Source: Thermotoga sp.
GTDB lineage: Bacteria; Thermotogota; Thermotogae; Thermotogales; Thermotogaceae
Length of the DNA stretch: 60,520 bases
Direction: 5' to 3'
Assembly: GCF_021162145.1 (NCBI RefSeq)
Contig: NZ_JAGGZH010000026.1
Span: 1 to 60,520 of the forward strand
Positions 58,257-60,520 of this stretch are shown here, in pieces; within the stretch, counting starts at the first letter, position 1; every line of letters begins with the position of its first letter. A program made the translations under genes and the position numbers. The notes under the pieces are model-generated. The model made no database searches. It worked only from the letters and a program-made list of their open reading frames with translations, and was not told the DNA's origin.

Positions 58257-58282
58257 TTTTCAAGAGAAGGAGGAATATCGAG

Positions 58283-58310
58283 GGTCCGGTTGCCCCGGAC
58301 CTCTCTTTTT
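58283..58310 (+). terminator. Intrinsic terminator after rpsI
   Basis: GGTCCGG (58283-58289) pairs with CCGGACC (58295-58301), with flanking GAG/CTC reinforcement, followed by TCTCTTTTT. It ends 24 bases before dnaG, so dnaG must be reached by read-through or an undetected promoter. Confidence 0.8.
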
Positions 58311-58334: not shown

Positions 58335-60038
58335 GTGATCCCCCGAGAGGTGATCGAGGAAATAAAGGAAAAGGTCGACATCGTTGAAGTAGTCTCGGAG
58401 TACGTGAACCTTACAAAGGTTGGGTCTTCGTATCGAGCGCTCTGTCCCTTCCATGCGGAAACAAGTCCTTCCTTCTACGTTCACCCAGGCCTGAAGATAT
58501 ATCACTGCTTTGGATGTGGTGCGAGTGGGGACGTCATCAAGTTCCTCCAGGAAATGGAGGGAATAAGTTTCCAAGAGGCTTTGGAAAGACTCGCAAAAAG
58601 AGCGGGAGTTGATCTTTCCGCGTATAAGTTGACTGGAAGCTCTGAGTACACCAGATACGTTCAACTGTACGAGGAAGTCTGGAGAAGGTACACCACCGAA
58701 CTCAAGAAATCCGATCGAGCGAAGAAATACTTGCTGTCCAGGGGCTTTGCGGAAGGGGAGATAGAGAGCTTTGGATTTGGATACGCTCCTGAAGATTCGA
58801 GGATATCTATTGAAATTGGGAAGAGGTTGAACCTGAAAGAAGACGAGGTAATAAGGTATGGGCTGGCTTTGAAGAGAGGAAGTAGGTTGATCGATAGATT
58901 CGAAGGAAGATTGATCGTTCCGATAAAAAACGACAGGGGACATATCGTTGCCCTCGGGGGTCGTTTGTTAGGCGATGGTGAGCCGAAGTACCTGAACTCT
59001 CCAGATACCAGATATTTTTCCAAAAGGAAGACACTGTTTCTCTTTGATGAAGCAAAAAAAGTAGCAAAAGATGTTGGCTTTTTCGTGGTAACCGAGGGGT
59101 ACTTTGATGCTCTGGCATTCAGGAGAGATGGAATCCCAACAGCGGTGGCGGTTCTGGGAGCGAATCTTTCTCGTGAAGCTATTCTAAAACTTTCTGCTCA
59201 TTCAAGGAATGTGATCCTGTGTTTCGATAACGACAGAGCGGGTCTCAAAGCCACTTTGAAATCACTGGAGGACCTTCTGGAGTATGAGTTCAACGTTTTG
59301 ATAGCAACTTCAGATCCTTACAAGGATCCCGATGAACTTTTTCGGAAAAAGGGAAAAGGATCTCTCAAAAAGATGCTCAAGGAATCGGTTTCATTCGAAT
59401 ACTTTTTGATGAAGGCGGGAGAAGTTTTCTTCGATAAAAACAGTCCCACAGGTGTGAAGTCCTACCTCTCTTTCTTGAGAAAGTGGGTTCAAAAGATGAG
59501 AAGAAAAGGATATTTGAAACACGTCGACAACCTTGTGAAGGAGGTCTCCAGCTCCACACAAATACCAGAAAGTCAGATATTGAACTTTTTTGAAAGTGAT
59601 AGGTCTAACAATATGCTTGCACAAGAGGTGAAACCATCAAAAATCTACGACGAAGGAAAGGGACTCGTGTACTTGTTTTTGAACTACGAAGACTTCAGAA
59701 GGAGAATACTGGAACTCGACCTGAATGTTTTGGAGGATCGTAATGCGAGAGAATTTTTCGAGAAGGTGGCTTCTATCGGGAATTTGAACGAGGCGACAGA
59801 ATCACTCCCGAAAGAGGTGAAGGATTGGATCTTCAAAGTCCTGGAAGAGGTTCCCCCCCCAAAAAATCCGGAAAAGTTTTTTCAGGATCTCTCCGAAAAG
59901 TTGAAAGTGCGTCAGTTAAAAAAGCGCCTAGGGGAGATAGAAAAGATGATAAAACAGAGCACCAGTGAAGAGGAAAGACGTATCCTCTTGAACATGAAAG
60001 TGGACCTTTTGAGAAAAATCAAGAGGAGGAGAAAAAGT
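58335..60038 (+). CDS. dnaG: DNA primase DnaG, reading frame continuous with rpoD
   Basis: 568 codons from a GTG with GGGAGTGAGAAC upstream. CHC2-type zinc ligands C37, H40, C58, C61 (ALCPFH, YHCFGCG), then an RNA-polymerase core, then the Toprim motifs E254-G-Y-F-D258 and D298/D300 (CFDNDRAG). The helical C-terminal DnaB-binding domain ends [14 protein letters not shown]. There is no stop codon: the next codon in frame is the ATG of rpoD. A C8A6 run (59853-59866) at codons 507-511 could shift the frame and end DnaG early. Full catalytic content, near-normal length. Confidence 0.92.
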
Positions 60039-60520
60039 ATGGCAGAAAAGAAAGAGGCTATCACGAAAGAGGAACAGGCCAAAGAACAGGAAAAAAGGTT
60101 TTCCTCTCAGATAGAAAAGCGGATAAAAAAACTCATAAATCAGGGAAAAAAGAGGGGATACATCACCTATGAAGACATAGACAAAGCATTTCCACCCAAT
60201 TACGAGGAGTTCGATACGAACTTGATAGAGAAGATATACGAGGAACTCGAAAAGCATGGAATAAACATCGTGGAGAGCGATTCAGAGGAAGAAACAGAGA
60301 CCTCCGCTGAGGAACTGGAAGAGCTCCTTGAAAGGGAATCCCCTGAGATACACGACACCAGCAACGTGAGGGATTCTATAAAGATGTATCTCAAGGAAAT
60401 TGGCAAGATACCACTCCTCACACCGGCCCAGGAAAGAGAGCTCGCAAGACGAGCCCAGATGGGCGACAAGAAAGCCAAAGAAAAGCTCATAACGTCGAAC
60501 CTAAGGCTGGTTGTCAGTAT
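60039..60520 (+). CDS. rpoD: RNA polymerase sigma factor SigA (RpoD), N-terminal part
   Basis: 160 residues in the window; the 3' end is cut off. The internal ATG at 60039 has AGGAGG (60024-60029) nine bases upstream, a normal start signal. Region 1.1-like [20 protein letters not shown] is followed by an acidic linker ([20 protein letters not shown]) and region 1.2-2.1 ([39 protein letters not shown]). It is in the same frame as dnaG with no intervening stop, so it is either expressed from its own start, as a DnaG-sigma fusion, or both. Confidence 0.93.

Follow-up and report, generated by a model that had tools for sequence, protein, structure and literature searches.

A single base joins the dnaG and rpoD reading frames on one contig of a Thermotoga draft genome

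Described arrangements of neighbouring information-processing genes

The dnaG-sigA operon was described as highly conserved in the excerpt of one published account (PMC2824700). Passages of a second paper (PMC1557499, citing Zakharova et al. 1999) reported that rpoB and rpoC are a single gene in Helicobacter and Wolinella, and overlapping stop and start pairs were studied as cases of termination-reinitiation coupling in a section of a third (PMC6728339). A literature search for a report of a dnaG-rpoD fusion found none, and one on TM1451 returned nothing relevant.

The locus analyzed here resembled the usual Thermotoga arrangement of dnaG and rpoD as separate genes (the macromolecular synthesis operon, with its dnaG-sigA core) in gene order, in the 565-aa length of DnaG, and in the position and sequence of the Shine-Dalgarno site, and its flanking genes were colinear with those of the nearest Thermotoga genome. 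It differed from the usual pair by one base, TGA to AGA at position 60030, which joined the two frames on this haplotype. The window, that is, the whole stretch of DNA analyzed (60,520 nt), is the entire contig C26 of a 152-contig, 1.69-Mb Thermotoga sp. draft genome with scores of 99.04 for completeness and 0.04 for contamination. The contig terminates at 60520, inside rpoD, so that the rpoD stop lies beyond the window. At the opposite end, positions 1-1500 were 74% identical to positions 1599-3094 of contig C77 in the same genome, a resemblance that suggests a paralogous gene or a repeat.

The open frame and its two genes

Translation from the dnaG GTG codon at 58335 gave 728 stop-free codons (58335-60518), reaching the final complete codon before the contig end and passing through the rpoD ATG at 60039, exactly as originally predicted. 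The list of open reading frames contained the same frame, open at its 3' end and counted from an upstream TTG at 58290. The features of the junction were as follows.

58335..60029, + strand: dnaG (primase), 565 codons, GTG start; its end set by the TGA stop of the relatives
60024..60029, + strand: Shine-Dalgarno core AGGAGG for rpoD, 9 nt upstream of the ATG
60030..60032, + strand: AGA codon (Arg); C91 and all Thermotoga relatives read TGA (stop) instead; single T-to-A difference at 60030
60039..60520, + strand: rpoD / sigA (primary sigma factor), 5' part, truncated by the contig end; complete on C91
59869..60520, + strand: 652-bp overlap of C26 with C91 (10759-11410, minus strand of C91); 20 substitutions, no indels

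Both halves of the frame were genuine, as had been proposed from the look of the residues on either side of the junction. Zn_ribbon_DnaG, DNAG_N and Toprim domains were found within residues 3-341 of the fused frame, and the zinc ribbon, the DNAG_N core and Toprim all exceeded the curated cut-offs, placing the product among the DnaG primases. It also matched TIGR01391 with 425 bits and shared 83-85% identity with DnaG, likewise 565 aa long, in the two nearest genomes. Sigma70 regions 1.1 and 1.2 lay within residues 594-712, both over the Pfam cut-offs, and identified the second half as the primary sigma factor RpoD/SigA, of which C91 supplied the full-length protein. The RpoD of C91 was complete at 390 aa and 96-97% identical to the RpoD of the two nearest genomes, which measured 392 aa; the original prediction was therefore correct in expecting a DnaG of 565 residues in relatives, but its figure of 399 for RpoD was not recovered. 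Since dnaG and rpoD were both well conserved, only the missing stop needed explaining.

Upstream of the pair, between rpsI and dnaG, we noted a terminator-like hairpin (GGGTCCGGTTGCCCCGGACCT, 58282-58302) followed by a T-rich tail; given this hairpin, transcription of dnaG-rpoD may be partly separate from that of the ribosomal protein genes. A promoter scan around rpoD returned nothing over chance level.

The second haplotype and the ancestral junction

A search of the draft genome with the fused protein gave a second match, 97% identical and containing one internal TGA, on the 11,410-bp contig C91. Direct alignment of the window and C91 at the junction read AGGAGGTGAAAAAGTATG against AGGAGGAGAAAAAGTATG, with A in the window (AGA) and T in C91 (TGA) at 60030. 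Among the neighbouring differences, the window has C at 59993 and G at 60065, where C91 has T and A. On C91, dnaG closes after codon 565 and rpoD begins 9 bases past the T of TGA, encoding a separate 390-aa sigma-A. C91 was colinear with the locus of the nearest complete genome over its full 11.4 kb, and the window was colinear with that same locus over 5.5 kb, each at about 83% identity. Colinearity of both contigs with one locus indicated alleles of a single locus from two strains rather than paralogues. The fused frame is real in the sequence, but it does not represent the species.

The differences between the two contigs fell largely at third codon positions (14 of 20), and all but two were transitions (18 of 20). 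Together with the absence of indels, this pattern looks like natural strain variation. At many of the 20 sites the window carried the base of the relatives, which argued that the window haplotype is itself real. We infer from the contigs that two strain haplotypes were assembled and binned together. The far end of C91 was identical to contig C54 (6181-6307) over exactly 127 bases, a length that is likely the assembler's k-mer length, and C91 and C54 are probably neighbours. The overlap of the window with C91, long and divergent, differed in kind from this one.

Inside dnaG, a C8A6 run occupies 59853-59866, and its C8 portion (59853-59860) exceeds every other C run in the window; the run is interrupted in both of the nearest genomes (CCCCCTCCAAAG). 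C91 begins 9 bases after the end of the C8 run, which may be a site of slippage or may have caused the contig to break. We considered a frameshift or a homopolymer error at this run as the origin of the open frame and rejected it, as the frame aligned with the relatives on both sides.

The junction was then compared with that of six further Thermotoga species genomes and one genome from a sister genus. In all seven the dnaG stop was TGA directly after GGAGG, within the Shine-Dalgarno sequence of rpoD (GGAGGTGA), and the rpoD ATG followed 7-8 bases past the T of TGA; position 60030 was T in all six of the relatives that were aligned. The ATG was out of phase with the dnaG stop in the two nearest genomes (+7). 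On both haplotypes here it was in phase with the stop position (+9), owing to two additional bases in the A run relative to those two genomes, and this phasing placed the species one base from a fused frame.

In a wider sample, the dnaG/rpoD junction region was read in each of 65 other Thermotogota genomes, and none carried dnaG and rpoD in a single open reading frame; for one locus the fetched stretch held no rpoD, and in another dnaG was shortened. The original prediction had proposed looking for a dnaG stop in other Thermotoga genomes, and this search went against the fusion, with TGA in all close relatives and no fused genome in the phylum sample. Two long open frames, of 1034 aa (G081) and 1026 aa (G095), were rejected as candidates, as they consisted of separate dnaG and rpoD frames with spacers. 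The junction was also sought in IMG/VR viral contigs, where none was found, and a genome-contig search returned only a distant sigma-factor fragment. The T of the relatives at 60030, together with the lack of any fusion in the phylum sample, indicated that AGA is the derived state.

Origin and consequences of the missing stop

The locus is, with high confidence, an ordinary Thermotoga dnaG-rpoD pair on one of two co-assembled haplotypes, in which a one-base stop loss reflects either a rare allele or a miscall. In the ancestral and usual form, the TGA stop of dnaG is built into the Shine-Dalgarno site of rpoD (AGGAGGTGA), and the layout suggests coupling, by which ribosomes terminating primase synthesis could restart on sigma-A. 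The internal AGGAGG that had been predicted at 60024-60029 was present. In the TGA allele, pairing with the 16S rRNA continues through the stop codon (AGGAGGTGA); the duplex predicted between this site and the 3' end of 16S rRNA came to -18.2 kcal/mol for TGA versus -13.0 kcal/mol for AGA, calculated with the 3' end GGATCACCTCCTTTCT as found in two relatives (sister genomes). The draft genome held no exact copy of this 16S 3' end. A single T-to-A change at 60030 both opens the frame and weakens the predicted Shine-Dalgarno pairing. In the AGA allele, ribosomes would continue through Arg-Lys-Ser into sigma-A. If the A is real, the strain would make a DnaG-sigma-A fusion of about 958 aa and 111 kDa (computed with the C91 tail of RpoD), and some free sigma-A (45.5 kDa) would presumably still arise from the retained AGGAGG core. 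The claim that ribosomes finishing dnaG would produce a primase-sigma fusion stood in part: the frame and the Shine-Dalgarno site are there, and standard translation would fuse the two proteins if the base is real, but the fusion does not extend to the whole organism, as C91 has the stop.

One explanation, on which we are evenly divided, is that a natural stop-loss allele is segregating, so that some cells make the DnaG-sigma-A fusion along with free sigma-A initiated internally. In other respects the window haplotype is natural, its frame is intact on either side of the junction, and the kept AGGAGG core and ATG spacing mean that free sigma-A could still form. When the window was compared with the nearest genome, 65 of 72 matched gene-like open reading frames ended at the same stop, those with a differing stop, besides dnaG-rpoD, were mostly antisense or short, and no other convincing stop loss or frameshift appeared. 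With the window otherwise clean, the A could not simply be attributed to poor assembly. However, the allele was absent from all relatives, 60030 is one of only 2 transversions among the 20 differences, and the change removes the stop between two essential genes while weakening the Shine-Dalgarno site of the essential rpoD (-18.2 kcal/mol with TGA, -13.0 kcal/mol with AGA). The overlap is also where both contigs stop.

That last point also bears on a base error, in which the window haplotype truly carries TGA and the A is a consensus mistake, introduced near the end of the contig on a strain path of low coverage; we rate this slightly below an even chance. The two contigs break within 652 bp of one another, C91 starts 9 bases past the C8 run, as expected where coverage drops, and the change is both a transversion and unique among the relatives. 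Nevertheless, 490 bases separate position 60030 from the end of the contig, the remaining 19 differences look natural and include no indels, and no other gene of the window was convincingly broken or fused.

A DnaG-sigma-A fusion gene fixed throughout the species would account for the uninterrupted frame, but it is very improbable, since C91, which belongs to the same draft assembly, retains the dnaG stop and codes for RpoD as a protein of its own (390 aa). A duplication of the region within one chromosome, with the genes fused in one copy only, would explain the two sequences in the assembly, yet this is scarcely credible, as a single locus of the nearest genome is colinear with the window and with C91, both of which end within their overlap, and no other phylum genome listed had two near-identical copies.

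For the stop loss on one of two haplotypes, the meaning depends on the base. We hold, with a little less than even confidence, that a natural strain carries a primase-sigma stop-loss fusion beside an unfused sister strain, a fusion event caught while polymorphic. If the base is real, one mutation would have joined, in living cells, the protein that primes replication to the one that starts transcription, with the unfused sister strain as a control. Such a strain would reveal the first step in the fusion of essential genes and whether sigma-A can bear an N-terminal partner of 65 kDa. If the base is an error, the locus illustrates that a fused frame at the end of a draft contig must be compared with the other contigs of the assembly.

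As in the rpoB-rpoC fusion, two adjacent, co-directed, essential information-processing genes are here read as one polypeptide. That fusion is fixed in whole genera, whereas the dnaG-rpoD frame was found in a single draft genome, on one haplotype of two; a fixed fusion of the rpoB-rpoC type, shared by all members of a lineage, was contradicted by the TGA of C91 and the 65 unfused genomes. The TGA allele is akin to termination-reinitiation pairs, as the available section of the source presents them, in placing a stop, the next Shine-Dalgarno site and a start within a few bases, and the AGA allele is predicted from its sequence to lose termination and hence termination-reinitiation coupling.
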